NCBI GenBank assembly: GCA_012517155.1
Contig: JAAYVN010000027.1
Coordinates: 1-40,641 of the forward strand
Direction of reading: 5' to 3'
From: Ignavibacteriales bacterium
GTDB taxonomy: Bacteria; Bacteroidota; Ignavibacteria; Ignavibacteriales; Ignavibacteriaceae
Length of the DNA: 40,641 nt
Position numbers and translations under genes: made by a program. This document shows, piece after piece, positions 2,963-38,021 of this stretch (positions are counted from its first letter, which is position 1; the number at the start of each line of letters is the position of its first letter). Below the pieces are notes generated by a model, which worked only from the letters and a program-made list of their open reading frames with translations, was not told the origin of the DNA and ran no database searches.

Positions 2963-3527
2963 TCCCATCTCCCCTCTTCAGCAATGGAGAGGGGACCTCC
3001 TTTTTCATAAGACGAAGGAAGGGAATATTGATCTTTGTTTATTTGTTGATTTGTTCCCGCAAGCGGGACAGGTGAGGGGTTAATCTGCCTGGCCCGTGAA
3101 GCGGGGTGGGAATCTGTGTGTAATCTGCGAGAATCTGTGGTTAAGAGCTGGCAATCGCCGGAGGCAGAGGTAGAGGCAAAGGTAAAGGTAATCCGCCTGC
3201 GGCGGAGTCATTAGGCTTCGCCGTCATTACGACTCAGTCAGAGGAGTGGGAATGTATTTTCCCCCCTCCGCCGAGGCGGAAATTAAAGGGGGGTTTTATC
3301 TTTTAAGATTGGCAACCATTTATTGTAAAACAATCTTATAAGATTTTTCTCTGTCCGTTAGCTAACGGATAAAACTCAGCGTTCCGACAGAGTCGGATTG
3401 CGTTACGCCGTTTATGCCGACTTTGTCGGGACGTTTAAGAGCTATCAATAACTGGAGGGAAAAAGGGTAGAGGTGTTAAGGGGAGGATGGAAAAAACTTT
3501 AATAATAATGTAGAAAAAATTAAATAT
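2963..3527. repeat. Gene-free spacer of palindromes and dispersed repeat blocks (right copy)
   Basis: No gene is supported. Blocks shared with the 1709-2281 spacer are 3045-3064 (20 bases identical to 2112-2131), 3162-3176 (15 identical to 2081-2095), 3204-3229 (25 of 26 identical to 1862-1887) and 3321-3340 (20 identical to 1941-1960). Further palindromes are CCGCC-TGC-GGCGG at 3193-3205, TCCGCC-GA-GGCGGA at 3267-3280, CCGTTAGCTAACGG at 3355-3368, CCGAC-AGA-GTCGG at 3384-3396 and CCGAC-TTT-GTCGG at 3417-3429. A C6...G6 pairing followed by TTTT (3261-3297) could act as a terminator. Confidence 0.75.
2970..3005 (+). terminator. Intrinsic terminator after the unknown 226-residue gene
   Basis: Stem TCCCCTCT (2970-2977) pairs with AGAGGGGA (2988-2995) around a 10-base loop, followed after CCTCC by five T's. 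It starts 8 bases past the stop codon. Confidence 0.6.
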
Positions 3528-13848: not shown

Positions 13849-13888
13849 ACGAGAAAGATATACAAGAAAAAACAAAGATTATGATAAT

Positions 13889-16800
13889 ATGAAGAACACA
13901 TCAACTAAAACCGATTTTAATATAAATTTTCTTTTGGTTGTTTTGCTTAGTGTGATGATTGGCGGAACTTCGTTTGCTCAAAGGCTTACAAGCGAGGCTC
14001 AGTTGCAAAGCGAGATAGATGCGGTTAAAAGTTTTATTAATCGCGTTAATTCAACCCAGTATTCACCGGTTTCGACACAGCAAATATACAAACCAGAGGA
14101 TAATTTCAGATTGCAGAAAGAAAATCAGACCAACGCTTACCAGCGAAAACATTATCTGATGAATGCAAACAGAATAACCACGGAAGTATACAGTTACGGT
14201 GGTATTGCCCCGGGATACGGACTGCTCCGCGGCGTGAACAACGGAGTTTGGAAAGGACTTTCGTATATTTTCCAGTTTTGTCCTTTTGTTGGAGCCTCGG
14301 TTCCTGATAATTCCGATCCAACAAAAAGACTGAAAATAATATCTGACGGATTGTGGGATTACCCAACCCAGGCCTATCAGTTAAGGGAAGTGAACCCTAC
14401 AGGAGATACTCTATGGCAGTTCCAGCCCTTACCCGGCTATGATGACGAAAATCAGGAATATATGGCATCTAATCCGGCACCCGATTTGAACAAGGACGGA
14501 AAACCGGACAGCTGGCCTTCGACCTGGTATAATGCAGTCCTTGGAAAATACGTATGGCCCGGTTATCTGGCTCAGGATGCGGAAAATGCAGATCTTGAAG
14601 TATTCTGGGCAATGGACGACAGGGACAACCGTGAGTTTAACTACTTCCCGTTCCCCGGTGATTTTGTAAGAAGAGGACTGGGAATTCAGATAGACGGCAG
14701 AGGATTGCAGTGGAGCAACACACTTGCTGAAAACGCAATCTTCTTTATTTACACAGTAGCAAATATCAGCTCGAAAAATCTAGACACCATGTACTTTGGA
14801 GTTTACGGAGATTGCGATGTGGGAGGCGGTTCACCTGAAAATACGGATGACAATGGATTGTTTATTCCACCCCATGATGTTCCGGGCTATCCGACTGTTG
14901 CGAACATTCCGGTATATTCAAGAAGTGTTGTTTATTTCTGGGATCCGGATGGCAAGGGAGATTATGGACTTCCGGTTGGTTATGTGGCATGTAAATATCT
15001 TGAAAGCCCGGGTAAACCAAATGACGGGGTTGATAACGATGGTGATTTGATGACAGATGAAAGTCAGGAAGATAATATTGATAATGACGGAGACTGGAAC
15101 CCGGCAACGGATGATGTGGGACAGGATGGAGTCCCAAGCACAGGTGATTTAGGTGAAGGAGACGGATTGCCTACACGCGGTAAAAAACTCCCCGGCGGCG
15201 CCCTTGATCCTTTATTCCCCGGCGAACCTAATTTTGAGTACACAGACCTTGACGAGGCAGATCAGATTGGATTATCCAGTTTCAGCAGTTGGACTTGGCC
15301 GAATGACCGGGTTTCCAATGATGAAGGGATGTGGAACAGAATACGGGCGGGAAATTTCAGCCCTGATGGAATTGCTCAGGCAACGGACATAGTGTTCTGT
15401 TTTGCTTCCGGAGACATTTCCCTGGCTGCTCAGGAAACCAAAAGAATTTCTTCTTCCCTGCTTTTTGGGGAAGACTTAAATGATCTGCTGGTTACTGCTG
15501 AAACTGTTCAGAGAATTTATAATGCCAACTACCGGTTCTATAGACCACCGGCAAAACCAATTGTTAACGCGATTGGTGGAGATAAGAAAGTAACACTTTA
15601 CTGGGATTCCAGAGCAGAAGGAAGCAATGACCCGCTTACCGGTATGGACTTTGAGGGATATGTGATTTACAGAAGCACTGACCCAACGTTCAGCGATATT
15701 CAGGGCATAACCGATGGAAAGGGAAACTCGTTTTTCTCAAGACCATTAAAAGACCTTACTGGAACTGATGCCAGATTTGATCTTATTAATGACTGGGCAG
15801 GTTATCACCCGGTTTCTTACAGGGGAAGAGGTATTCAATATTATCTTGGTGACGACAGAGGACTTGTTCACACGTATGTCGATTCGAATGAAGTGATAAA
15901 CGGACAAACGTATTATTATGCGGTTGTTGCCTATGACCATGGCGATTCGGTGGGAGTACCTCCGACAGAAACAACAAAGAAGATTACGCTTGACGCAATA
16001 ACTTCAAAATATGAATTTGATGTTAACACAGTAGCGGTTGTACCCGGTCCGCGAGCCGGAGGATATTTATTCCCCGATGAGTCGGCACTTGCATTGACTC
16101 AGAAGGCAGGAATCGGAAACGGAAAAATCACGATGAAGATTGTGAATGATCTGCTGGTTCAGGACAACGTGGAATATGATATAATCTTTTCCGACACATT
16201 GCGGGATGGAAATACGGTTACGGCAGCGAAGAATTTTTCTGTTCTGAAACTTGCAGATATAACAGATATGGTAAGCTTTACCGATACGAATTTTTATAAA
16301 CTTAATCACGCGAATCTTAATAAATCATTTATTCCGGTAGTCACCGATGAATCGGGAAAGGCTTATACGGAAAACAGTGATTATATAATTGACTACGAGC
16401 GGGGATTGATAAGAAGAACCGGTTCAACAACTATGGCGCTCAGCAAACCGTACAAAGTTGTGTACAGGCATTACCCGATAAGCCAAAGCACGTTGTTGAA
16501 ATATGAAGACGGCAACTCGGTTTTTGATGGTTTGCAGATAAAAGTTCAGGATTATGAGCAGTTGATTATTGATACAATTGCAACAAAATGGTCAACTGGA
16601 TCAACGAACTTCGATTTTACAATTGATCTGACAAAGCTGGCATTTCCGCGAAAGAAAAGATATCCGGCAAACTATGAGGTGAAATTCTCGGCTGCCAATA
16701 TTGACTCGGCAAAAATCGGTACGCAGCTCGGTGTCTATCCCGTACCCTTCCAGGTTGTGGATGTAACCACCGGAGTTCCGGTGAGAGTCTGGACATACGT

Positions 16801-17383
16801 TATTGAAAATGCCGCGACTAAAAACTTTAAATATGACTTTGGTGAAGAAATAATTTTCTTTAACTCAGGTTCGAACGGAGTTATCTCGGACACCTTGACC
16901 TGGAGTTTATTGGTTAAAGCACCGACTGATTCGGGAGTAACGCCAGTTGCGCCAACGGATGGAGATGTTTTATATATAAGAACAGAAAGACCGTTCAACA
17001 AGTATGACCGTTTCTCATTTACCAGCAAATCGGGACAATTCAGCAACAGTGAAGCGAAGTCAAGACTTGATAATGTGTACACCGTGCCGAATCCTTATGT
17101 GGGATATAATGAGGTTGAACCAACGAACAAGCTTCCCGGAAGATCGCGCGGGGAGAGAAGAATCTATTTCGAGAATCTGCCTCCTAAATGTACGATAAAA
17201 ATTTACACGTTAAGCGGAGACTGGGTTCAGACAATAGAGCATGAATCAACTTTTGATAATGGTCGTGAATACTGGAATCTATTGAATTCAGACGGTTTTA
17301 GCATCTCTTACGGAATATACTTTGCACATATTGATGCCGGAGAGATAGGGGAGAAACTAATTAAATTTGCAATAATTAAATAA
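13889..17383 (+). CDS. Large secreted protein with calcium-loop and FN3-like regions and C-terminal sorting-like domain (cassette A, gene 2)
   Basis: 1164 residues from the ATG at 13889, where a signal peptide begins (MKNTSTKTDFN then a hydrophobic core ending SFAQ). The frame is open 21 codons further back into the receptor gene, but that extension is not signal-like. Residues about 377-402 hold two acidic loops (DGVDNDGDLMTDE, DNIDNDGDWNP), followed by GEGDGLPT and a TDLDEADQIGL segment; they look like calcium-binding thrombospondin-3/dockerin-type loops. A fibronectin type III-like module at about 550-690 (KKVTLYWDSRAE ... GQTYYYAVVAYD) follows. The last 100 residues (VPNPYVGYNE ... IKIYTLSGDWVQTIEH ... 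YGIYFAHI) resemble a sorting domain but carry VPNPYV instead of YPNPFNPST. It is paralogous to 33374-36997. Function is not known. Confidence 0.85.
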   Translation: MKNTSTKTDFNINFLLVVLLSVMIGGTSFAQRLTSEAQLQSEIDAVKSFINRVNSTQYSPVSTQQIYKPEDNFRLQKENQTNAYQRKHYLMNANRITTEVYSYGGIAPGYGLLRGVNNGVWKGLSYIFQFCPFVGASVPDNSDPTKRLKIISDGLWDYPTQAYQLREVNPTGDTLWQFQPLPGYDDENQEYMASNPAPDLNKDGKPDSWPSTWYNAVLGKYVWPGYLAQDAENADLEVFWAMDDRDNREFNYFPFPGDFVRRGLGIQIDGRGLQWSNTLAENAIFFIYTVANISSKNLDTMYFGVYGDCDVGGGSPENTDDNGLFIPPHDVPGYPTVANIPVYSRSVVYFWDPDGKGDYGLPVGYVACKYLESPGKPNDGVDNDGDLMTDESQEDNIDNDGDWNPATDDVGQDGVPSTGDLGEGDGLPTRGKKLPGGALDPLFPGEPNFEYTDLDEADQIGLSSFSSWTWPNDRVSNDEGMWNRIRAGNFSPDGIAQATDIVFCFASGDISLAAQETKRISSSLLFGEDLNDLLVTAETVQRIYNANYRFYRPPAKPIVNAIGGDKKVTLYWDSRAEGSNDPLTGMDFEGYVIYRSTDPTFSDIQGITDGKGNSFFSRPLKDLTGTDARFDLINDWAGYHPVSYRGRGIQYYLGDDRGLVHTYVDSNEVINGQTYYYAVVAYDHGDSVGVPPTETTKKITLDAITSKYEFDVNTVAVVPGPRAGGYLFPDESALALTQKAGIGNGKITMKIVNDLLVQDNVEYDIIFSDTLRDGNTVTAAKNFSVLKLADITDMVSFTDTNFYKLNHANLNKSFIPVVTDESGKAYTENSDYIIDYERGLIRRTGSTTMALSKPYKVVYRHYPISQSTLLKYEDGNSVFDGLQIKVQDYEQLIIDTIATKWSTGSTNFDFTIDLTKLAFPRKKRYPANYEVKFSAANIDSAKIGTQLGVYPVPFQVVDVTTGVPVRVWTYVIENAATKNFKYDFGEEIIFFNSGSNGVISDTLTWSLLVKAPTDSGVTPVAPTDGDVLYIRTERPFNKYDRFSFTSKSGQFSNSEAKSRLDNVYTVPNPYVGYNEVEPTNKLPGRSRGERRIYFENLPPKCTIKIYTLSGDWVQTIEHESTFDNGREYWNLLNSDGFSISYGIYFAHIDAGEIGEKLIKFAIIK

Positions 17384-17427
17384 TATTAGATCTCTAATAA
17401 CTTTAAATATGATCTAAGGAGATTTAA

Positions 17428-18432
17428 ATGAAGATAAAGATTTTAATAATAACAATATTAATCTGTACCGCAGGATTTGGACAGAATATAAGTAAGAGCG
17501 GATCAACAGCAGCGCAATTCTTAAAAATCGGAGTGGGAACAAGGGCAATTGGCATGGGAGGAGCATTTTCAGCCACCTATGCCGATCTCAGTTCGATATA
17601 CTGGAATCCTGCAGGAATAGCGGGAATATATAGCCGGGAAGTTCAGTTTAATCACGTTGACTGGATAATGGATGTAAATTATGATTTTGCATCGTTTGCT
17701 ATGAAAACGGGAGATATTGGAACTTTGGGTGCTTTCGTTTCCGTTCTATCGATGGGAGAAATGCCTGTGAGGACTAATGAGCAGCCTGAAGGAACCGGAG
17801 AGTATTTTAATGCCGGTGGACTTCAGATAGGGCTGTCATATGCAAGAGAGCTCACGGATAATTTCTCAATTGGGTTCAATGCAAAATACGTACGCGAACA
17901 TATTTGGAATATGTCTGCTACAGGGTTTGCTCTGGACATAGGAACATTGTACAAAATCAACATTCTGAACGAATTTCGTCTGGGTGCAAGTATATCTAAT
18001 TTCGGAACTAAGATGAGACTTGACGGAAGGGATGTTCTTAAGGTAATTCAAGTTGGTGGGTCACAGGGGAATCTTATCAATACGAAGATTGAACTTGATG
18101 AATACGATATGCCGTTGTTCTTTAGAGTGGGAATTGCCGCAGATGTTGTTAAGGAACAGGATCATCTCCTGACGGTGGCACTGGACGCAGTACATCCCAA
18201 CGACAACTCGGAGGCGATTAATTCGGGGCTGGAATATTCCTGGAATAATATAGTCTTTTTGCGAGCCGGGTATAAGTCGTTGTTTGAACAAAACGGCGAG
18301 CAGGGACTGACCCTGGGTGCCGGAATTAACTATAAAATCTTTGATGCGGTTGCACTAGCGCTGGATTATGCATACGAGGATTTCGGTATTCTCACTAATG
18401 TGCATTATTTGACGGTGGGAGTAAAATTTTAG
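17428..18432 (+). CDS. PorV/PorQ-family outer-membrane protein (cassette A, gene 3)
   Basis: 334 residues with signal peptide MKIKILIITILICTAGFGQ. The mature N-terminus AAQFLKIGVGTRAIGMGGAFSATYADLSSIYWNPAGIA is the hallmark of the PorV/PorQ (UPF0164) family, 14-stranded FadL-like barrels. Known PorV binds C-terminal sorting domains of T9SS cargo and brings them to the attachment complex. The remainder is beta-strand-rich and ends in aromatic-hydrophobic VGVKF. TAAGGAG precedes the ATG. It follows the large secreted gene by 44 bases and is paralogous to 37017-38021. I infer it partners the neighbouring secreted protein; whether it is the general PorV of this organism cannot be told. Confidence 0.88.
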   Translation: MKIKILIITILICTAGFGQNISKSGSTAAQFLKIGVGTRAIGMGGAFSATYADLSSIYWNPAGIAGIYSREVQFNHVDWIMDVNYDFASFAMKTGDIGTLGAFVSVLSMGEMPVRTNEQPEGTGEYFNAGGLQIGLSYARELTDNFSIGFNAKYVREHIWNMSATGFALDIGTLYKINILNEFRLGASISNFGTKMRLDGRDVLKVIQVGGSQGNLINTKIELDEYDMPLFFRVGIAADVVKEQDHLLTVALDAVHPNDNSEAINSGLEYSWNNIVFLRAGYKSLFEQNGEQGLTLGAGINYKIFDAVALALDYAYEDFGILTNVHYLTVGVKF

Positions 18433-26103: not shown

Positions 26104-27102
26104 ATGGAGAGAAAAAATATGCCGGAGTCGTTACGCAGGCTTTCTTTTGATGGAACGGATATGTTATCCCTTCTGGGGATGAATGATGCAAATATCAAGA
26201 TTCTTGAAAACCGTTTTAGTACCACAATAACAGTAAGGGGGGAGAATGTGGTTATTAAAGGAGTGGAGGAGGAGGTGGGGGTTGTTGAAAAAATCTTCAA
26301 AGAAATGGTGTATGTGTTAAATACGAACGGTCGTTTGAAGGAGGATGATGTCAGAACTATTGTGGAACTGACAATGCACGGTGGTGAGGTGGTGAGTGAA
26401 AAGGATTTTGATGACATTATTCTTTATACGAAGAACGACGTTATTAAAGCGAAGACGCCCGGACAAGTTAATTTTTACAAGACGGCTTTGAAGAATGATA
26501 TTTGTTTTGCCATAGGTCCGGCGGGGACGGGGAAAACTTATATGGCTGTGGCGATTGCGGTTTCGGCAATGAAGAAGGGGGTGGTGAACAGGATTGTTTT
26601 GGCAAGGCCTGCAGTGGAAGCCGGGGAATCTTTAGGGTTTTTGCCCGGGGATTTCAGGGAGAAGATAGATCCATATTTAAGACCGCTTTATGATGCGTTG
26701 GATGATATGATGCCTTCTGAGAAACTGAAGGGATATATTGAGAAACGAGCAGTAGAGATTGTTCCGTTAGCTTATATGAGGGGAAGGACGCTAAACAATG
26801 CTTTCGTTATTCTGGACGAGGCACAGAATACAACGGATATGCAGATGAAGATGTTCCTGACGAGGCTAGGGGTAAATTCCAAAGCGATAATTACTGGGGA
26901 TATTACACAGATTGATTTGCCTGCAAAACAAGTAAGCGGGCTAGTAAAAGCGCAGGAGATACTGAAGAATATCAAGGGAGTGGGGTTTGTATACATGGAC
27001 AAGCGAGATGTGGTAAGGCACAAGCTAGTAAAGGATATTATTGACGCATATGAAAATGTATATAAGACAAATTCACATGAGAAAAAAGGGGAAGGAAGTT
27101 AG
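26104..27102 (+). CDS. phoH: PhoH family ATPase
   Basis: 332 residues, the normal length of PhoH-like (PhoL/YbeZ) proteins: cytoplasmic P-loop ATPases linked to RNA metabolism, often with YbeY. Residues about 20-75 are the KH-like N-terminal region (NIKILENRFSTTITVRGENVVIKG), the linker has TPGQ.NFYKTALKNDICFAIGPAGTGKTY with Walker A at 138-145, and Walker B is VILDEAQNTT; TRLGVNSKAIITGDITQIDLP is also a family signature. The ATG lies immediately after the preceding terminator T-run, leaving little room for a promoter; AGAGA is the only ribosome-binding candidate. The stop codon overlaps the stop of the convergent acyltransferase gene by 4 bases. Confidence 0.92.
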   Translation: MERKNMPESLRRLSFDGTDMLSLLGMNDANIKILENRFSTTITVRGENVVIKGVEEEVGVVEKIFKEMVYVLNTNGRLKEDDVRTIVELTMHGGEVVSEKDFDDIILYTKNDVIKAKTPGQVNFYKTALKNDICFAIGPAGTGKTYMAVAIAVSAMKKGVVNRIVLARPAVEAGESLGFLPGDFREKIDPYLRPLYDALDDMMPSEKLKGYIEKRAVEIVPLAYMRGRTLNNAFVILDEAQNTTDMQMKMFLTRLGVNSKAIITGDITQIDLPAKQVSGLVKAQEILKNIKGVGFVYMDKRDVVRHKLVKDIIDAYENVYKTNSHEKKGEGS

Positions 27103-29033: not shown

Positions 29034-29068
29034 AAAAAGGGCAAGTTTGATTGAATTTGCCCTTTTTT
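29034..29068 (+). terminator. Strong intrinsic terminator after ilvE
   Basis: AAAAAGGGCAA (29034-29044) pairs with TTGCCCTTTTT (29057-29067), ending in a T-run. It may also work in the other direction because an A-run precedes the stem. Confidence 0.88.
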
Positions 29069-29136
29069 ATTGTCAAAGGGGGAGAGTTGTTTAATTGTTA
29101 ATGAATCGTGAGGAGAAGGAATTCTGATCGAGTTAA

Positions 29137-29202
29137 GTACGTATTCAGTACGTATTCACCACGTATTCAGTACGTATTCAGTACGTATTCACCACGTATT
29201 CA
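29137..29202. repeat. Six tandem 11-bp repeats arranged as two 33-bp units
   Basis: The unit GTACGTATTCA occurs at 29137, 29148, 29170 and 29181; a variant CCACGTATTCA occurs at 29159 and 29192. The order is two standard units plus one variant, repeated exactly twice. Unmutated copies have the palindrome TACGTA. An 11-bp period is close to one helical turn, which would put all copies on the same face of the DNA. It lies about 240 bases before the first gene of the cassette B operon. Confidence 0.9.
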
Positions 29203-29441
29203 TATCGAAGGGAGAGGGGGTGGAGGTGGGGTGGCAGAGGTGGGGATGGGGAAATCCGGGGGAGGGGCTTGGGAGGGAACAGGGGAGAAATGAAATAAGA
29301 GGGGATTGGAACGGAGATATACTGATATGGCAGAGGGGGAGGATGTGACGGAGGGTTTTGATTATTAACTAATTTTTACATAAATTGCAAAGCTATTTTA
29401 GCAGGATTGTGCTTAGGTTAAACTTAATATAAGAAAGAAAA
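29203..29441. other. G-rich, purine-rich tract with quadruplex-forming pattern, then AT-rich leader
   Basis: Together with the terminator and the tandem repeat, this completes a 429-base gene-free stretch. 29205-29310 is almost all purine on the plus strand. Bases 29242-29285 contain seven G-runs of 3-5 bases with loops of 1-6 (GGGG, GGGG, GGGGG, GGGG, GGG, GGG, GGGG), a clear quadruplex pattern. From 29360 the sequence is AT-rich and probably holds the promoter of the next operon, but I see no convincing boxes. Confidence 0.7.
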
Positions 29442-30551
29442 ATGAAGAGAGCGTTAAGGTTACAAATATTTCTTGTGAGTTTTTGTTTATTTTTTTTACA
29501 GGTAAAAAATGTTGGACAGATTGAGACTTCAGGGGTTGAGGTAACTGAAGGGAATATTTTTTCTATAAATGATGTTATGGTGACTCTTGAGGACTCATAT
29601 ATCCGAATTGCAGGAGAGGATGATGTTTTGTTTAATGAGCAAGTAAGAGGGTTAAAGCAGGTGGAATTTTCGAAGGACAGGGAGTATATGTTAATCCTTT
29701 CGTATGATTTTCCAGAGGCAGAAGAGAATTTCCAGATCTACGGTTATCTTTTTGATAATAATTTTAAACTTACGGACAAATTTATAAACGAGGCATTCTA
29801 TGGAATGCCTCATCCATTATACAAGGTTAATAATAATGGGGTTATTACGTATATAGACCCCCTGACACTCAAGCTGACAATAAGGGAGAGGGGAAATGAG
29901 AAGGTTATTGATCCGGAAGAGGGGATTGAGTTTGAGATGGAAAGGCAAATATATATTGACAGTAATGATGAGGGGGTTGCGGTGATATATAACAGGGAAC
30001 TGATTCCTATAGAAGAAGAAAATCCGGTTTTTACTGTTGTGCGGTATGATTTTGACGAGGAGAAGGAAGTAACCGGTGAGGCAGGGATAACGGCGGTGAC
30101 TTATTTCGGGTTAACGGAGGGGGGTATTATAATAAGCGGGGTTAAATTTGAAGAGAGTGTACCGAATCCGCTGAGCATAATGATGAACGAAAGGCTTGAA
30201 AAGACAGGAGAGAGCAGGGAGATAAATTTTGAGAGATTGGCGAGTTATGACGGGCTGATGGTTGGGACATTCAATAAAAGTTTGATAGTGTTTAACGACA
30301 AGTTTGAGAAAAAGGGGGAAAGGTATATAACGGGAGAGGGGAGATTCAAGGGGGTGTTTGAAAGTAAGGGGGAACTGGGGATTATGGTTGAGGAAGACGG
30401 AATGTTGTGGATTTTCAGGACAGACGACAATGCGGCAGGATATAATGAAGAAGAACCGCGTGCCGTGTTAGGATTTAATAATTTTGATAGGTTTGTGAAT
30501 GCAGGCGAATGTTTTATTCACAGAGATAATCAGACATACATAATTAAGTAA
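29442..30551 (+). CDS. Exported protein of unknown function (leads the cassette B operon)
   Basis: 369 residues with a signal peptide (MKRALRLQIFLVSFCLFFLQVKNVGQ). The mature part is rich in Glu, Gly and Val with alternating hydrophobic residues, consistent with an all-beta, perhaps propeller-like fold (repeating stretches such as YIRIAGEDDVLFNEQ, GLMVGTFNKSLIVFNDKFEK, GELGIMVEEDGMLWIFRTDD). I do not recognise a family. AGAAAGAAA precedes the ATG. It is followed after 24 bases by the TonB receptor of cassette B, so it is probably the first gene of that operon; cassette A has no counterpart directly upstream. Confidence 0.75.
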   Translation: MKRALRLQIFLVSFCLFFLQVKNVGQIETSGVEVTEGNIFSINDVMVTLEDSYIRIAGEDDVLFNEQVRGLKQVEFSKDREYMLILSYDFPEAEENFQIYGYLFDNNFKLTDKFINEAFYGMPHPLYKVNNNGVITYIDPLTLKLTIRERGNEKVIDPEEGIEFEMERQIYIDSNDEGVAVIYNRELIPIEEENPVFTVVRYDFDEEKEVTGEAGITAVTYFGLTEGGIIISGVKFEESVPNPLSIMMNERLEKTGESREINFERLASYDGLMVGTFNKSLIVFNDKFEKKGERYITGEGRFKGVFESKGELGIMVEEDGMLWIFRTDDNAAGYNEEEPRAVLGFNNFDRFVNAGECFIHRDNQTYIIK

Positions 30552-30575: not shown

Positions 30576-33350
30576 ATGAGAAAATTGTTTCCTTTGGTAA
30601 AACATATAGTAATAGTATTGATTCTGACGATGGGGGTTGCGCATGCCCAATCGGGGAAGATATCGGGCAGAATAACTGATAAACTAACGGGTGAGCCGCT
30701 TCCGTTTGTGAATGTGGTGATAGAGGGGACTACACAGGGCGCCGCATCGGATCTGGACGGTTATTATAACATACTGAACGTAGCACCGGGAAATTATTCG
30801 ATAAAGATTTCGGCGGTGGGTTACAGTTCAGTAACGATTCAGGGTATCCGGGTATCAATAGATTTAACGTCGAAGCAGGATGTTCAACTTTCGGAAGTAA
30901 CGCTGGAACTGGGGACAGAGGTGGTGGTTACTGCAACGAAGCCACTAGTAACGAAGGACTTAACAAGTTCAACATCCATTGTAAGTGCGGATGATATAGC
31001 GGCTTTGCCGGTAACGGAATTTCAAGAAGTGCTTCAGCTAAAAGCCGGAATAGTTGGGGGAACGGTGAGAGGAGGAAGACGCGGCGAGGTGGTTTATGCG
31101 ATTGACGGTGTGCCGGTAACGGACGTGTATGACGGGGGGACGGTAGTGGATGTGAATGCGAATTCGATACAGGAGCTTCAGTTTGTAAGTGGAGCCTTTA
31201 ATGCTGAGTACGGTAAGGCTTTATCAGGTTATGTAAATATTGCCACAAAAGACGGAGACAACACGTTTAACGGAACAGTCACGGCATATGTGGGAGACCA
31301 TTATACTACCAACACAGACTTGTTCAGAGACGGGAATAAAATAAATCCGCTTGCGGTAAGAAACCTTGAGGGATCATTAAGCGGTCCGATATTAAAGAAT
31401 AAACTTTTCTTTTATGCAAACGCAAGATACATATATTTTGACGGATGGCTGAAGGGATTGAGGGTATTCAATCCGTGGGATATAACAACAAATTTAGGTG
31501 CGACGGAGCCAATAGAGTCGAGATATATTTTCCAGAATACGGGAGACAGTGCTGTTGTGCCAATGAACTTCAATGAGAAGGTTTACGGGCAAGGGAAATT
31601 AACTTACAGGTTATTAGACAATGTAAAAGTTACGTTTAATTACATATATGACAGAGTAAGATACAGGGATTACAATCACAGCTTTGCATATAATCCTGAC
31701 GGAGATTTGAAGAGATTCAGGTACGGGAACACAAATATACTTGGTATAACTCATACGTTAGGATCGAGTACATTTTATCAGTTAAATTTGTCTTATTTCT
31801 TTAAGAAGTATCAGCATTATGTTTATGAAAATTTTGACAATCCATATTATACGCATGAGAATCTTTTAGGTCAAAATCCGGCTGATCTTCCAACGCCATT
31901 GACGGGGGGCACAATCAATCAGCATTTCAAGCGGACGACCGGAACGTACGGTGCAAAGTTTGATATAACTTCGCAAGTAACGCAGATTCATCAAATTAAA
32001 GGGGGAGTTGAGTTTAACCGGCACAATTTATCATTTGATAATATTAATTTAATACAAGAGCAGGGGCTACAGGATCCATCTATTACGGGAACACCCTGGG
32101 CAAAGATGTATTTGCCTGATCCAAACAATCCAGATGAGAATTTGAGGATTGATTTGTATCAGAGGACACCGATAGAGTTTTCGACCTATTTACAGGACAA
32201 GATTGAGCTGAATGAGATGATCATAAATATCGGATTAAGGTTTGATTATTTCAAACCGGACGGGAAAATATTAGCCGATTCGATGAAGGATGATCCGGAT
32301 ATTTACCGACCAAGAAAACCGTGGAATATCAGCAAGACATTAGCAGAACGAAAAGAGATCTGGTACACAGACGCCACGGCAAAATATCAGGTAAGTCCAA
32401 GGTTAGGAATAGCATTTCCGATAACAGACCGAGGAGTGATTCACTTTTCCTACGGGCACTTTTTCCAGATACCGAACTTTGATTTGCTGTACACAAATCC
32501 CGAGTTCAAATTTGGACAGGGGACAGAGAATTTAGGGATTGCGGGGAATTCGGACCTGAAGCCACAGATGACGATAAGCGGTGAGGTTGGAGTTCAGCAG
32601 GCAATAACGGATGAGATAACGGTTGATTTGACCGGATATTTCAGGGACATTAGAAATCTTGCCGGAACGAGAGCAGATGAGATAAGGATATTCGGAGGGG
32701 CCGGAAGGTACAGTCAATACGTAAACAGTGATTTCGGATTTGTAAAAGGAATAGTTTTATCCCTGACGAAGAGATTTTCGGACAACTGGAGTGCTACAAT
32801 TGATTACACATTGCAGAGTGCAAAGGGCAATGCAAGTGATCCGGCAGCCACAAGAAATCAGGTGGCAAGCGGACAGCAACCCGAAATACAATTAATACGG
32901 CTTGATCAGGATCAGACGCATACTGTGAACGTAACATTCAATTATTCATCAGCTGACAACTGGGGATTCAGTTTGATAGGACAATATGGAAGCGGATTCC
33001 CATATACGCCTTCTCAATCGCTTAATCTTTCAGCTTTGTTAACCAACAGTGAATTAAAGCCGGTAACTTACACGGTTGATTTAAGGGCATACAAGGATAT
33101 AGTATTCGGTTCGTACAAGGTGAGTATTTTTGCAAGGGTATTCAATCTGTTTGATATACAGAGCGAATACGGAGTATATAATGATTCGGGTACTGCTGAT
33201 TTCACATTGGCTGAGTATTTATTCAGGCAGAGGAACACAGATGAAGTGCTAAGGCATTATAATCTCAATACTGTGGACGAATATTACAGAAATCCGACGA
33301 TGTATTCGGAACCGCGACGTATAGAAGTTGGTGCGACATTATTTTTCTAA
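30576..33350 (+). CDS. TonB-dependent outer-membrane receptor (cassette B, gene 1)
   Basis: 924 residues with signal peptide (MRKLFPLVKHIVIVLILTMGVAHAQ). A carboxypeptidase-regulatory-like domain lies at about 27-115 (SGKISGRITDKLTGEPLPFVNV ... LDGYYNILNVAPGNYSIKISAVGY), a plug at about 130-235 (LPVTEFQEVLQLKAGIV, VYAIDGVPVTD, FNAEYGKALSGYVN) and a beta-barrel to the C-terminal Phe-Phe. It is paralogous to the receptor at 11086-13848 over its whole length: shared blocks include DITSQVTQ.H..K.G.E, SPRLGIAFPITD.GVIHFSYGHFFQ.P and DQTHT.N.T. Likely imports an unidentified large ligand. The SusD partner of classic systems is missing here too. AGGAGG is present before the ATG. Confidence 0.92.
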   Translation: MRKLFPLVKHIVIVLILTMGVAHAQSGKISGRITDKLTGEPLPFVNVVIEGTTQGAASDLDGYYNILNVAPGNYSIKISAVGYSSVTIQGIRVSIDLTSKQDVQLSEVTLELGTEVVVTATKPLVTKDLTSSTSIVSADDIAALPVTEFQEVLQLKAGIVGGTVRGGRRGEVVYAIDGVPVTDVYDGGTVVDVNANSIQELQFVSGAFNAEYGKALSGYVNIATKDGDNTFNGTVTAYVGDHYTTNTDLFRDGNKINPLAVRNLEGSLSGPILKNKLFFYANARYIYFDGWLKGLRVFNPWDITTNLGATEPIESRYIFQNTGDSAVVPMNFNEKVYGQGKLTYRLLDNVKVTFNYIYDRVRYRDYNHSFAYNPDGDLKRFRYGNTNILGITHTLGSSTFYQLNLSYFFKKYQHYVYENFDNPYYTHENLLGQNPADLPTPLTGGTINQHFKRTTGTYGAKFDITSQVTQIHQIKGGVEFNRHNLSFDNINLIQEQGLQDPSITGTPWAKMYLPDPNNPDENLRIDLYQRTPIEFSTYLQDKIELNEMIINIGLRFDYFKPDGKILADSMKDDPDIYRPRKPWNISKTLAERKEIWYTDATAKYQVSPRLGIAFPITDRGVIHFSYGHFFQIPNFDLLYTNPEFKFGQGTENLGIAGNSDLKPQMTISGEVGVQQAITDEITVDLTGYFRDIRNLAGTRADEIRIFGGAGRYSQYVNSDFGFVKGIVLSLTKRFSDNWSATIDYTLQSAKGNASDPAATRNQVASGQQPEIQLIRLDQDQTHTVNVTFNYSSADNWGFSLIGQYGSGFPYTPSQSLNLSALLTNSELKPVTYTVDLRAYKDIVFGSYKVSIFARVFNLFDIQSEYGVYNDSGTADFTLAEYLFRQRNTDEVLRHYNLNTVDEYYRNPTMYSEPRRIEVGATLFF

Positions 33351-33373
33351 AATAACAGAACAGGTTTTGTAAA

Positions 33374-36300
33374 ATGAAGATAATAAAATTAGTATTAATA
33401 GTAATAGCGATATATTTACTGATTCCGGAAGAAGCATACAGCCAGCAGCGAGTAACGACACGCGGAACAAGCACATTCAGGAAAGTGGGTATTCACAGGG
33501 GGAATCAGGTAAGGACGATATTTTCGAATTACGGAGTTATAGCACAGCCCGGGGATCAGGGTCCAAGAGGATCATGGAAGTATGACGCAAACGGGTATGT
33601 GGGAGACGTATCGCCATTAGTAGGAATTCATCTTCCGGTGAAGGATTATGATATGAACGATACACTTAATTCGAAAGATACAATACACTCGGTAATAATA
33701 ACGCCGGTAAGCAGACCAGGAGGCGGTGACTATGCGCCAGGTGGAGCGTTCTGGGGATTTGAGCCGATACCGGGTTTTGCAAATCCTTCGCTGAATGAAC
33801 TGGCAAAAGGAGTAGCAATGAGTCATCAACCGGAAACCTGGCCGCCTGCATGGCCTGATTTCCCGACCTGGACATATTCGGGTGAACCAATAATTATTGA
33901 CGGAAAGGATATGACGCCTTCGGTGGACTGGAACGGATATTTCGGACGCGGGCAGATAAATGCAGATCAGGAAAGTTATTTCTGGATGGATGATAATCCG
34001 GATGAGAAGATGTTTCAGCGGCATGGATTTATCCCGGATTCAATGGATCAGTTAAGACGCGGACATGCATTGCAGGTATCAATAAGAGGTTTGCAATGGA
34101 GCAACTTTCTTGCACAGAATGTTCTTTTCTGGTTATATAATATAAAGAATGACGGAACATCAACATATGATCAGGCTGTTTTCGGAACGTTAGTGGGGAC
34201 GTACGTTGGTGCAGAGGGGGATGAATGGAATGACGACGCATCATTTTTCGATGTAAGAGAGTCTATCACATATACATTTGATATTGAGCCGGGTTACGGA
34301 GGGAGAGGATACATAAGGCCAACTGCGAATGCGAAGTGGCAGCCAAATCCGAGTCAGGTGGGATACATAGCATACGCGTTTCTGGAATCACCGGGAAATG
34401 GAATAGACGGAGTTGACAATGATGCAGACAATCAAAAATTTTCGGGTGATGCGAAATTTTTCAAGACAGAGGATTTTAACAGTAAGACAATCAAGCCTAA
34501 TGATAAATTGGTGCTAATTGACAAGAGCACATTCCAGAGGACATTATTTACAATGCCGAACGATACGGTTACAGTAACATCCATGGGAGTAAAGTTTTTC
34601 TTAAATCCCAATGTTACAAAGTTAAATGAAGGAGATATTGACCCTACGGGAGCAGTAAACAAGAATGCATTTGACGGTATTGACAATGATCTTGACGGAT
34701 TAATAGACGAGAATTATATAATTCACTACAGGCAGTATAAGAAATCACCGGCAGGGATTGTGCTAATTGACACACTGAATCCGGTACAATATAAGGATTT
34801 TGCAGGGAACATCGGATCTGGTGATATAATGCTTGATGAGAGCAGGGACGATGGAATAGATAATGACGGAGACTGGAATCCGTTGACAGATGATGTGGGT
34901 TTGGACGGAAAGCCCAACACAGGCGATCAGGGAGAGGGGGACGGATTGCCGACATCAGGATTTCAACTAAACCCAGTAACAGGAAGGTTAGAAGACACAC
35001 AATTTCCGGGAGAGCCGAATATAGATAAAACGGATGTTGATGAATCGGATCAGCTGGGACTGACGAGCTTCCAGTACTTTGTGCCGGCAAACGATGTAAA
35101 GATGAATGATGACGAGGATATGTGGAGGAGATTAAATCCCGGGTATTTTGATGTGCCGGCATCGGTAGTGGGCAATGTAGCAACCAGAGGTGAAGACGGT
35201 GACTTTATGTACGGGTCCGGATATTTCCCTCTTTTACCAGGAAAAACAGAAAGATTTTCATTAGCTCTTGCATACGGAGAAGATCTGAAGGGTGTAATTA
35301 AGACAAAGCAGATAGCGCAGTTAATATACAATGCAAACTACAATTTTCCTCAACCACCAGATAAGCCGACGTTAAAATTAGTTGCGGGGGATAAAAAAGT
35401 AACTCTATACTGGGATACAAAAGCGGAAAACAGCATTGATCCCACCACAAAGGAAAAAGACTTTGAGGGGTATAAAATATATAAAGGGACGGATCCTGAT
35501 TTTACAGATGTACAATTAATATCAGATGCGAGCGGGCAGATAGTATTTCTAAAGCCGTATCAGCAATTTGATCTGGTAAACGGAATATCGGGATTATTTA
35601 TTTCATCGCCGGGATTATATGAGTTAACAAATGGTGCTCCGTTCAATCTGGGAAGCGATAACGGAGTGGTTAATTCGTTTGTTGACAATGAAGTAATTAA
35701 CGGCAGGACTTATTATTATGCAGTTGTAGCATACGACAGAGGCAGAACAGACAAAGATATATATCCGAGTGAAAACACAAGATATATAAGCAAGGACGTT
35801 ACCGGGAAGATTTCGACGGACAAAAACACCGGTTTCGCAATACCAAACGCACCGGTTTTGGGATATGTACCTCCAGAGTCAGGAAAGAAACTTGACAGAG
35901 CAAAAGGGGGTTCAACAGTTACGCCTTACTTTGAGGTGGTGGATCCTACTGCGGTAAAAACGACGACATATATTGTGACATTCACCGATTCAGTAAGCAA
36001 GGGAGTAGAAATCGGATATGCTTATACAGTGAAAGATTCGTTAAGCGGTCAGATTCTGATAGATCAGAGCAGGAAGCTATCGGGAAGTAACGGAGAAATA
36101 TTTGACGGAGTAAGACTTTCGATTGATGCAAGCTACCAGAATCCAGACAGCGTAAAACCGAATCCAAGTATAAGCGGATGGAGAATAAACAATCAAACAC
36201 AACCGGATACAAGATTCTTAAAATACAGTGTAATCCAGTGGGTTGATACAGTGTACAATAATGTGATTGGAGATAAGCCGGCTAAGGATTATGCATTTGT

Positions 36301-36997
36301 ATTTTCAAATGATTATAAAGACAGTTCGAATGATTTAAGCGGATTGTTTAATTTCCAATTACCGGTAAACAAGAAGTTAAACTTCAAGATATATGATGTT
36401 ACAGAAGCAGCAAATCCAAAACAAGTAAAATTCTTGTTCTACGAAGATCCGGCAGCACCGAAGCAAGACACATTATCGGCAGATGACATACTTGTGTTAT
36501 CGAATGAAGACGGAACAAAGATTTCATGGCAGGTAATATTCTCGGACACCGGAGTATACATACCAAAAGGGGGGGACACATTAAAATTAGGATTTTTCAG
36601 ACCGCTTTCAGCTGCAGACAAGTTCATATTCAATACAACGGCAGCGGGATACAATTCAGGTGCGGCAAAGGACTCGTTAACTAAAGTAAGAGCGGTGCCA
36701 AATCCGTATGTAGTATCGAACGTATTCGAGTCGCCACTACCGCCGACAGTAAGAGGGCGAGGAGAGAGGATAATCAATTTTATTAACGTGCCGCCAAATG
36801 CGAAGATACATCTTTATACATCAAGCGGAAATCACATAAGAACGCTGGAGCATGACGGGGACATAAATAACGGAAGCGTTATTTGGGATTTGAAGACGAA
36901 AGAAGGACTTGATGTAGCTTTCGGTGTTTATTTCTATGTAGTTGAAGCAGACGGAATAAGCGACAAGAAGTACGGCAAACTTGCAATAATAAAATAA
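33374..36997 (+). CDS. Large secreted protein with calcium-loop and FN3-like regions and C-terminal sorting-like domain (cassette B, gene 2)
   Basis: 1207 residues with signal peptide MKIIKLVLIVIAIYLLIPEE then AYSQ. It is paralogous to 13889-17383: shared RGLQWSN.LA.N, DESR/Q.D.IDNDGDWNP.TDDVG, GEGDGLPT, FPGEPN, GDKKVTLYWD.., and the FN3-like V.NGRTYYYAVVAYD. Three acidic loops are seen at about residues 343 (DGVDNDAD), 433-447 (DGIDNDLDGLIDE) and 487-500 (DDGIDNDGDWN). The latter two are separated from the first by an insertion of roughly 130 residues absent in cassette A. The C-terminal 100 residues carry VPNPYVVSN ... RGERIINFINVPPNAKIHLYTSSG ... FGVYFYVV, the same variant sorting-like domain. 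It lies 23 bases after the receptor. Confidence 0.85.
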   Translation: MKIIKLVLIVIAIYLLIPEEAYSQQRVTTRGTSTFRKVGIHRGNQVRTIFSNYGVIAQPGDQGPRGSWKYDANGYVGDVSPLVGIHLPVKDYDMNDTLNSKDTIHSVIITPVSRPGGGDYAPGGAFWGFEPIPGFANPSLNELAKGVAMSHQPETWPPAWPDFPTWTYSGEPIIIDGKDMTPSVDWNGYFGRGQINADQESYFWMDDNPDEKMFQRHGFIPDSMDQLRRGHALQVSIRGLQWSNFLAQNVLFWLYNIKNDGTSTYDQAVFGTLVGTYVGAEGDEWNDDASFFDVRESITYTFDIEPGYGGRGYIRPTANAKWQPNPSQVGYIAYAFLESPGNGIDGVDNDADNQKFSGDAKFFKTEDFNSKTIKPNDKLVLIDKSTFQRTLFTMPNDTVTVTSMGVKFFLNPNVTKLNEGDIDPTGAVNKNAFDGIDNDLDGLIDENYIIHYRQYKKSPAGIVLIDTLNPVQYKDFAGNIGSGDIMLDESRDDGIDNDGDWNPLTDDVGLDGKPNTGDQGEGDGLPTSGFQLNPVTGRLEDTQFPGEPNIDKTDVDESDQLGLTSFQYFVPANDVKMNDDEDMWRRLNPGYFDVPASVVGNVATRGEDGDFMYGSGYFPLLPGKTERFSLALAYGEDLKGVIKTKQIAQLIYNANYNFPQPPDKPTLKLVAGDKKVTLYWDTKAENSIDPTTKEKDFEGYKIYKGTDPDFTDVQLISDASGQIVFLKPYQQFDLVNGISGLFISSPGLYELTNGAPFNLGSDNGVVNSFVDNEVINGRTYYYAVVAYDRGRTDKDIYPSENTRYISKDVTGKISTDKNTGFAIPNAPVLGYVPPESGKKLDRAKGGSTVTPYFEVVDPTAVKTTTYIVTFTDSVSKGVEIGYAYTVKDSLSGQILIDQSRKLSGSNGEIFDGVRLSIDASYQNPDSVKPNPSISGWRINNQTQPDTRFLKYSVIQWVDTVYNNVIGDKPAKDYAFVFSNDYKDSSNDLSGLFNFQLPVNKKLNFKIYDVTEAANPKQVKFLFYEDPAAPKQDTLSADDILVLSNEDGTKISWQVIFSDTGVYIPKGGDTLKLGFFRPLSAADKFIFNTTAAGYNSGAAKDSLTKVRAVPNPYVVSNVFESPLPPTVRGRGERIINFINVPPNAKIHLYTSSGNHIRTLEHDGDINNGSVIWDLKTKEGLDVAFGVYFYVVEADGISDKKYGKLAIIK

Positions 36998-37016
36998 TTT
37001 TACCGGAGAAAAAGAT

Positions 37017-38021
37017 ATGAAAAAGATGATATTAGCAGTAATTATAATATTAGCAGCCGGTATAAATTTTGGGCAGTCAAAAGTTGGAACCACTGCAGCA
37101 AACTTCCTAACAATACCAGTTGGGTCAAAAGCCACCGGAATGGGGGGCGCATTTGTGGCGGTGGCAAACGATGCAACGGGATTATACTGGAATCCGGGGA
37201 GTATAAGCTGGCTGGAAAGAAGCGAATTCAATGTGTCCTACTCGGAATGGCTGGTGGGAACCAAATTCAACTGGATAGGATTAGCATTCAAAATAACAGA
37301 TAATGATGCGGTGGGGATTTCAGTAAACCAGCTTGACTACGGAGAAGAAGAGATAACCACACCCGAAGAACCAAACGGAACAGGGCAAAGGTGGAAAGCA
37401 CAGGATATTTCACTGGCAGTAACTTATTCAAAAAATCTTACAGACAGATTCTCGATAGGAGGGTCCCTGAAGTATATCAGGCAACAGATCTGGAATGAGT
37501 CCGCAAGCGCGTTTGCGCTGGATATCGGGTTATTATTTCATACCGAATTAGATGGCTTGCGTATTGGCATGAATATTTCTAATTTTGGAACTGAAATGAA
37601 ACTGGACGGGAAAGATCTGTTGCAGTCGGTTGATATTGATCCCGCCAACACGGGGAATAACGACAAGATAACAGCGACCTTAAATACGGACAGCTGGACT
37701 TTACCTTTGATATTCACAGTTGGATTGGGGTATGATCTGATTAAAATGGAGGACTGGAAAGTTGTTCTGGCGACCGATGCAGTTTACCCAAACAATCAGA
37801 GTTCATACCTGAATCTTGGAACGGAAGTATCATGTAAGAGAATGATAGCATTAAGAGTGGGTTATAACTCGCTACTAAAGACAGATGCAGAAGAAGGACT
37901 TAGCGCGGGTGTTGGATTGATGTATGACTTTGGACCGGTATATGCGAAAGTTGACTACAGTTATAATCAGTTCGGAATATTTGACGCCATCAACAGAGTT
38001 TCAGTATCGGTGGGATTTTAA
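37017..38021 (+). CDS. PorV/PorQ-family outer-membrane protein (cassette B, gene 3)
   Basis: 334 residues, exactly the length of its cassette A paralogue, with signal peptide MKKMILAVIIILAAGINFGQ. The N-terminal family motif is KVGTTAANFLTIPVGSKATGMGGAF...NDATGLYWNPGSI. Later shared stretches are SIGGSLKYIRQQIWNESASAFALDIGLL (A: SIGFNAKYVREHIWNMSATGFALDIGTL, compared in part) and ISNFGTEMKLDG. It ends as a barrel strand VSVSVGF. As for the A copy, a role in handling T9SS cargo is inferred from known PorV. It starts 19 bases after the large secreted gene, with CCGGAGAAAA as a ribosome binding site. Confidence 0.88.
   Translation: MKKMILAVIIILAAGINFGQSKVGTTAANFLTIPVGSKATGMGGAFVAVANDATGLYWNPGSISWLERSEFNVSYSEWLVGTKFNWIGLAFKITDNDAVGISVNQLDYGEEEITTPEEPNGTGQRWKAQDISLAVTYSKNLTDRFSIGGSLKYIRQQIWNESASAFALDIGLLFHTELDGLRIGMNISNFGTEMKLDGKDLLQSVDIDPANTGNNDKITATLNTDSWTLPLIFTVGLGYDLIKMEDWKVVLATDAVYPNNQSSYLNLGTEVSCKRMIALRVGYNSLLKTDAEEGLSAGVGLMYDFGPVYAKVDYSYNQFGIFDAINRVSVSVGF

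Follow-up and report, generated by a model that had tools for sequence, protein, structure and literature searches.

The DNA analysed here, a 40,641-nucleotide contig of an Ignavibacteriales bacterium (JAAYVN010000027.1, the whole of which is called the window), carries a short direct-repeat array just upstream of an operon for surface proteins. The question raised by this locus is whether the array serves that operon or has a different, more general role.

The array and its surroundings

The array occupies 29137-29202 on the forward strand and consists of six 11-bp units in the order standard-standard-variant, repeated once, such that its two 33-bp halves are identical. This arrangement, reported in the initial annotation, is confirmed by the sequence and by TRF, the scores of which (134 for period 33 and 106 for period 11) are the highest in the whole window. 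The unit is better written as ACGTATTCA plus a 2-bp spacer (GT, CC, CT and, once, AT), with the spacers following one another as GT, GT, CC, GT, GT, CC in the register of that annotation. At up to two mismatches, GTACGTATTCA occurs 23 times in the window as against 8.8 times expected, and none of 100 shuffles reaches 23. The one-helical-turn spacing would fit cooperative protein binding, as was initially suggested; however, the TACGTA palindrome invoked alongside it is not conserved, in that it needs a spacer ending in T and is absent from both the CC variant and the unit of a second array type (type B, see below). The CC-type unit is the reverse complement of what we take to be a conserved stretch of 16S rRNA, a resemblance treated as a coincidence. 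No Rfam covariance model has a match in the window at the gathering threshold.

With its borders, the element extends beyond the array itself, to approximately 29126-29219. The 5′ border, GATCGAGTTAAGT (29126-29138, forward strand), ends in a diverged 11-bp unit, TCGAGTTAAGT, and is common to most of the 18 copies compared of the type to which the window array belongs (type A); the 3′ border, TATCGAAGGGAGAGGGG (29203-29219, forward strand), is conserved in 20 type-A copies and recognisably similar in part of type B. The tail of the intergenic gap that follows (29220-29290, forward strand) is rich in G runs and poor in C; its sequence is not conserved, and it belongs to the skew field described below.

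The genes described here are, like the array, on the forward strand. Upstream are phoH (26104-27102), which is 2 kb from the array, and a class IV aminotransferase gene (PF01063, 27945-29012). Between the latter and the array, a GGGCAA/TTGCCC stem followed by a T-run can be discerned by eye (29034-29069, forward strand); the call made by a terminator program is a neighbouring stem (29060-29082) and not this one. Downstream is the first ORF of the operon, cassette B (29442-30551), which is without a Pfam match; the cassette encodes an outer-membrane barrel, a PorV-like protein, and a T9SS-tailed protein. The window contains two such paralogous cassettes (11086-18432 and 30576-38021), both with a carboxypeptidase-regulatory/beta-barrel outer-membrane protein, a very large protein, and a PorV-like protein. 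Identity between cassettes A and B is 36% and 39% for the two protein pairs compared, which exclude the large proteins. Imperfect short tandem repeats are also clustered in the 5′ part of the window, at 1881-2006 and 3034-3191.

Dispersal of the array in the genome

The window array is one member of a dispersed family and not a one-off promoter element. In its own genome (3.29 Mb in 160 contigs, 99.65% complete, with simple ORF calls as gene calls), the ACGTATTCA-NN unit forms 20 further arrays. The 3′ border, which takes the form (t/c)ATCGAAGGRAGAGGGG, is common to 20 copies with few changes, and the 5′ border, ATCGARTTAAGT, is found in most of the 18 copies examined, L018 and L012 being those that deviate. 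A variant unit that recurs inside type-A arrays, ACGGCTTTA, allowed the second type to be traced: type B consists of ACGGCTTTA-NN units, is found in 23 places, and has borders partly similar to those of type A. The stretches read thus contain at least 44 arrays (21 of type A and 23 of type B) with 3-8 units each, which is a lower bound because the genome was read in part and the matches are those listed; the raw scan gives 45, as one palindromic array is counted twice, once per strand. Two pairs of contig ends (C128/C155 and C133/C135) each represent the same locus, and distinct loci therefore number approximately 42. All 44 arrays are in intergenic gaps; one array (L010) overlaps a 99-codon ORF of chance size.

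The overlapping contig ends C128 and C155 carry 7 and 8 units, respectively, along with one changed spacer and two differences in the flanks, and unit number therefore differs between co-assembled strains at one locus at least. The initial proposal that copy number changes by slippage is borne out to this extent as regards the change, slippage being its presumed cause. Arrays within 300 bp of a contig end are more frequent than expected (8 of 44 versus around 1.3), and the other contig breaks may have other causes. The contig ends C133 and C135 (L115 and L116) have 97% identity over 348 bp around a type-B array with an equal number of units and are likely to be a strain-variant pair.

One simple explanation for such arrays is ordinary regulation: they would be sites for, for example, an OmpR/PhoB-type regulator that controls the neighbouring promoters, including that of cassette B. 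Regulators of this type bind 11-bp direct repeats, which is the spacing found here. Moreover, where both neighbours of an array gap are called (n = 32), 17 gaps are divergent, 11 tandem, and 4 convergent, whereas, of array-free gaps, 10-22% are divergent and 71-90% tandem by count, the exact share varying with the minimum gap length. This excess of strand switches may, however, only mean that operons are avoided, and the four convergent gaps contain no gene start. Nor do the neighbours form a coherent regulon: among the 30 flanking genes scanned out of 78, 28 have a Pfam match, and these are functionally mixed, mostly enzymes and housekeeping proteins (including RecG, thymidylate synthase, PrmA, RmuC, an ATP synthase subunit, an aminotransferase, histidine kinases, and glycosidases). 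The 11-bp direct repeats of OmpR/PhoB-type arrays are therefore matched here but not their promoters in a coherent regulon, and a strand field of 20 kb (see below) would be left unexplained. We consider this explanation very improbable.

As to the particular role put forward in the initial annotation, the tuning of the surface operon, the search of the genome that it recommended did reveal further arrays, but these do not systematically precede surface genes, since a T9SS sorting tail is found in just one of the 30 neighbours scanned. Occurrence throughout intergenic DNA, which the same annotation named as an argument against its promoter reading, is largely what is observed. Moreover, the paralogous cassette A has no array before it: none of the 23 unit matches is located there, and a scan of the whole window for arrays finds only the one at 29128. 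Surface-operon regulation is therefore rejected as the main role of the array, as is promoter control in general, in view of the dispersal of the approximately 42 loci, the convergent gaps, the mixed neighbours, and the array-less cassette.

The strand-skew field around the arrays

A field of strand asymmetry that extends to around ±10 kb surrounds every array; the array is invariably on the G-rich strand of this field and, in most cases, at its maximum. The gene-corrected GC skew over ±3 kb is positive on the array strand in 44 of 44 cases (minimum 0.05), and the intergenic GC skew on this strand is positive at 43 of the 44. Gene direction does not explain this orientation because, relative to the array, 121 nearby genes are on one strand and 126 on the other. 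In the 31 arrays with longer flanks, the corrected skew averages about 0.20 at a distance of 0.5 kb and drops to about 0.17, 0.13, and 0.07 at 1.5, 4.5, and 8.5 kb, respectively, with standard errors of 0.013-0.028 within 9 kb; the decay is alike on both flanks, and types A and B resemble each other in it. At distances above 10 kb, the mean is around zero or slightly negative (-0.13 to 0.05), each bin beyond 9 kb containing only 6-9 arrays. For 28 of these 31 arrays, the maximum of the 4-kb windows is no more than 2.1 kb away, although 10 of the 31 have one side shortened by a contig end; the off-centre arrays, on C25, C2, and C101, are displaced by 3.6-4.9 kb. Overall G+C is 0.38-0.40 within 6 kb of arrays.

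The field of the window array covers 19100-39200 (forward strand), these limits being the ±10 kb of the mean profile. Here, the gene-corrected skew is +0.30 at the array and reaches its maximum, +0.31, 664 bp away; without correction, the skew in 5-kb bins is 0.25-0.31 at 20-35 kb compared with 0.04-0.09 at 1-15 kb. Within contigs read end to end, the sign of the skew and the orientation of the array flip together (on C90, in the order -, +, -, -), which rules out a global leading-strand orientation. Unit number is also ruled out as the driver of field strength, with which it has no correlation (Spearman 0.11, p 0.46, n 44). Many bacteria carry interspersed minisatellite-like repeats, and the arrays might be just such a passive, functionless minisatellite, as the variable unit number at one locus would allow, with the skew as an independent accident. 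This is scarcely credible given the match between orientation and local skew at every array, the centring, and the recurrence in other genomes (see below).

Far from arrays, the asymmetry is small. In 18 gaps more than 12 kb from any array, on five contigs, |skew| has a median of 0.035 and a maximum of 0.10; in 4-kb windows (n = 303) at distances above 10 kb, it is at most 0.157, compared with a median of 0.193 within 2 kb (n = 218). In the first 55 kb of C90 (1-55 kb), away from arrays, the sense-strand silent-site skew of 35 genes is 0.01 (sd 0.17). Gaps inside the fields are of no use as controls because they share those fields; their self-oriented skew is flat (0.116 to 0.075), whereas that of arrays falls from 0.216 to 0.032.

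Orthologues provide another comparison. The four-fold-site GC skew of phoH beside the window array is +0.72, versus a mean of -0.07 in 29 relatives (sd 0.19, range -0.67 to 0.23; the set is 30 of 40 matches, own included). The recG gene, which is on the opposite strand to its array, has the predicted opposite sign (-0.57), versus a mean of -0.01 in 29 relatives (sd 0.13, range -0.32 to 0.29; 31 of 31 genomes matched and 30 loci were compared, own included). These sets show that the field is absent from the orthologues of PhoH and RecG, the PhoH gene of one genome, G022, apart.

Such results bear on the possibility that the field came first, and that a mobile repeat inserted itself into already skewed DNA in a fixed orientation. 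The shared borders and variant units, which make the copies mutually related, are in its favour, as are the autocorrelation of skew over kilobases and the existence of a strong field without a recognised 11-bp array in another genome, G007. Against it are the closeness of the skew maximum to the array in nearly all of the 31 profiles, the low skew of the distant gaps and windows, and the unskewed orthologues in relatives (again with the exception of the G022 PhoH); moreover, no array-free field of equal strength was seen in the stretches of the own genome that were read. An insertion preference therefore looks improbable.

Which bases change? At four-fold sites within 3 kb, the array strand has C at 0.086-0.109 and G at 0.312-0.360 in genes of either strand, compared with 0.197-0.207 and 0.141-0.154, respectively, at 14-20 kb, where the bins depend on a few arrays with long contigs. 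T falls near arrays from 0.32 to 0.19-0.25, A rises, most of all at 5-10 kb, G is highest at the array, and four-fold G+C climbs from 0.34-0.36 to 0.40-0.46. Deamination of cytosine or of adenine alone is rejected, since C and T both fall while G and A both rise. Intergenic DNA within 1 kb shifts less than four-fold sites (C 0.12, G 0.22), and the change in amino acids between strands is modest (e.g., 1.22-fold for glycine and 0.68-fold for histidine). Near arrays, strand bias is strongest for polypurine words: GGGGA (666 v 95), GAGAG (489 v 56), and GAGGGGGA (33 v 0).

These words are reminiscent of KOPS-type octamers, and selection might maintain G/A-rich polar DNA around each array as a guidance field, the array acting as a loading site for a translocase of the FtsK/HerA/TraB type or for another reader of polarity. 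That intergenic sites are not the most affected and that no single lesion spectrum fits would both agree with selection of this kind. However, a specific polar motif is missing: no polypurine word is far above its sub-word expectation (GAGAAGG has a z of 3.0), and the largest z values, of about 4, belong to words other than polypurine. In addition, the polarity is equal on both sides rather than converging on the site, and the four-fold sites shift like bulk composition. Such guidance is unlikely, though it has an appreciable chance of being right.

Candidate mechanisms and related arrays elsewhere

Replication and transcription are the usual explanations for strand asymmetry in bacteria. In this genome, the asymmetry is arranged around some 40 discrete oriented elements, with two-sided fields of 20 kb and sign flips unrelated to gene direction. 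The explanation that we prefer, tentatively and at a little short of an even chance, is that the oriented array family anchors a recurrent DNA transaction that is confined to one strand and that works outwards both ways over around 10 kb. In its broader form, to which we would give an even chance, the arrays would constitute an undescribed class of chromosomal element in which oriented 11-bp arrays nucleate repeated strand-specific processing for around 10 kb both ways and so rewrite silent-site composition, with units and positions turning over between genera. If the arrays cause the field, there must be an unknown site-specific and strand-specific DNA transaction that is frequent enough to reset silent sites; the arrays would then mark where to look for it, and the field would give its range and strand.

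From this pattern, we infer that the array is bound by protein and causes the field, and we infer the kind of transaction as follows. A sequence-specific protein would bind the 11-bp units along one face of the helix. The next step, ranked first among the options, would be strand-specific entry at or next to the array, via a nick or a loaded strand, after which the entered strand would be excised and resynthesised on both sides; alternatively, the strand might be replaced by single-stranded fragments obliged to contain the array. Unit number would drift meanwhile, presumably by slippage. Resynthesis and fragment replacement would each account for an equal sign on the two sides of the array, for the gradual decay, and for the change at silent sites. 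Processes that switch strand at the site, such as a bidirectional origin or two-sided resection, are excluded because the sign does not change across the array; the two-sidedness of the field argues against motion in one direction away from the site, and the loss of both C and T against simple deamination.

Another mechanism that would involve single-stranded fragments is DNA exchange, with the arrays as recognition sites for uptake or transfer, in fixed polarity, of pieces of around 10 kb, and with the spread by biased conversion of purine-rich strands of weak structure. Fragments obliged to contain the array would be expected to give a decay to zero at around 10 kb such as that observed, which looks roughly linear by eye, and the shifts from pyrimidine to purine fit a bias for unstructured strands. 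ComEC is present in all ten genomes tested; it is, however, non-discriminating because it is equally present in relatives without detected arrays. Moreover, the approximately 42 arrays found are far fewer than known uptake sequences. Exchange of this sort is distinctly unlikely.

To return to the preferred reading of strand-specific entry, its closest physical model is the origin of plasmid pMV158, where RepB binds three tandem 11-bp direct repeats that are one turn apart on one side of the helix and nicks one strand at a site 84 bp from them (PMC9943647). That bind locus belongs to a single plasmid origin, whereas around 42 arrays are found here on a chromosome. A conjugative oriT would be expected to have a relaxase in the genome; the one relaxase family searched for, PF03432, is absent from 16 of 16 genomes, own included. 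An element of the REP/RAYT or IS200 single-stranded type would be expected to have a cognate Y1 transposase, but the own genome has one partial match only (31 of 121 positions), that is, the enzyme is nearly absent; 13 of 15 other genomes searched, with and without arrays, have one to eight matches each.

Other systems resemble the arrays in part. KOPS are G-rich. The AIMS are short strand-polar words (octamers) that follow replichores and rise towards the terminus (PMC5993296). In contrast to the replichore-bound polarity of AIMS and KOPS, polarity here flips between neighbouring arrays and is centred on each. The Streptomyces protein TraB, a translocase of the FtsK family, recognises clt repeats on plasmids and, less often, on the chromosome; these have 8-bp units and serve the transfer of double-stranded DNA, and the available part of the source notes no strand-composition field (PMC5365140). 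The present arrays differ in their 11-bp units and in the field.

Cyanobacterial STRR, MIRU-VNTR, and the HOOF repeats of Brucella are likewise short units repeated in tandem at numerous intergenic loci, and their copy number is variable. The present arrays are like these interspersed repeats in their many intergenic loci and in a copy number that varies at one locus at the assembly level; to our knowledge, neither a strand-asymmetry field nor a fixed orientation relative to one is known for STRR, MIRU-VNTR, or HOOF. Cooperatively bound arrays of 11-bp direct repeats occur in plasmid centromeres of the ParR/parC type and in PHO boxes, which are single loci or promoters and for which we know of no compositional field. 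No description of an array with a strand-skew field was found in open papers on the repeat or on local skew with repeats, the coverage of which is incomplete.

Related arrays are present in a few other genera of the family, the genomes searched including none of the own genus. With a two-unit pattern and one mismatch, the own genome is the sole match among 59. A loose four-unit pattern, at up to three mismatches, matches 13 of the 164 genomes searched in the order (the own genome among them), the overlapping matches numbering 184 in the own genome, 58 in G066, 14 in G070, 9 in G076, 8 in G069, 5 in G022, and fewer in the others, with some of them being mirror reads; the reversed pattern gives none in all 13 and one each in two other genomes. 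Among 197 genomes drawn evenly from the class, two match at up to two mismatches, own included.

Does the field accompany these arrays? In G066, which has 12 arrays, it is weaker: the skew of genes opposite the array falls from 0.51 to 0.14 across 8 kb, whereas genes along the array strand are flat (0.12-0.23, with no decay); two array-free stretches of this genome give -0.08 to 0.16 for the genes of one strand, the other having too few sites. The G066 arrays contain TAA and TGA in register, which rules out a coding repeat. The seven arrays of G070 also have a weaker, noisy field that fades by around 5-6 kb, and the four arrays of ACGNTTTCAAA units in G076 and G022 are without a field. The converse case is G007, in 360 kb of which there is one strong field (136-148 kb of the tile), together with weaker ones, without a recognised 11-bp array. 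This strong field, at around 3336000-3348000 of its C1 (L257 and L258), has a four-fold skew of about -0.6 and holds a 7-bp tandem array plus repeats of the GGTCCCCGAGC type. The association between array and field is, then, strong in the own genome; two further genomes show it and a third is suggestive of it, but it is not universal.

Several of these observations count against the preferred reading of a recurrent strand-specific transaction: the field without a recognised 11-bp array in G007, the ACGNTTTCAAA arrays without a field, and the flat array-strand genes of G066. Others come from the own genome: the intergenic response is below that of four-fold sites, which a pure mutation model does not predict; no single transition process fits a fall in both C and T; A peaks at 5-10 kb but G at the array; field strength is independent of unit number; three arrays are off-centre; and Y1 transposase is nearly absent and PF03432 absent. 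The skew along the whole of the G022 contig described next, the simple ORF calls, and the division of the assembly into 160 contigs also count against it.

The suggestive case is that of G022, the PhoH of which is the skew outlier mentioned above (-0.67) and lies on a contig that is skewed throughout (0.30-0.74). This outlier led to an intergenic 11-bp array of a different unit, TATTCTGYGRG, in 3.3 copies (L241, 18202-18242), at the higher of two skew maxima; further repeats of 11, 22, and 66 bp (L249, C59 302-3370) are a few kilobases from the other maximum of the contig. Scans for local skew may reveal counterparts built of unrelated repeat units, one of which came to light in this way here in another genus.

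Outside the group, a three-unit pattern run over 84,980 species, own genome excluded, matched at six places with a single match each, in unrelated genomes, and in viral contigs at none. Short direct repeats of CGTATTCA (L051-L054) were seen in two Staphylococcus, one Shewanella, and one Eremococcus; those of L054 are directly 3′ of the apparent end, as judged by eye, of an integrase gene and are possibly arm-type sites.
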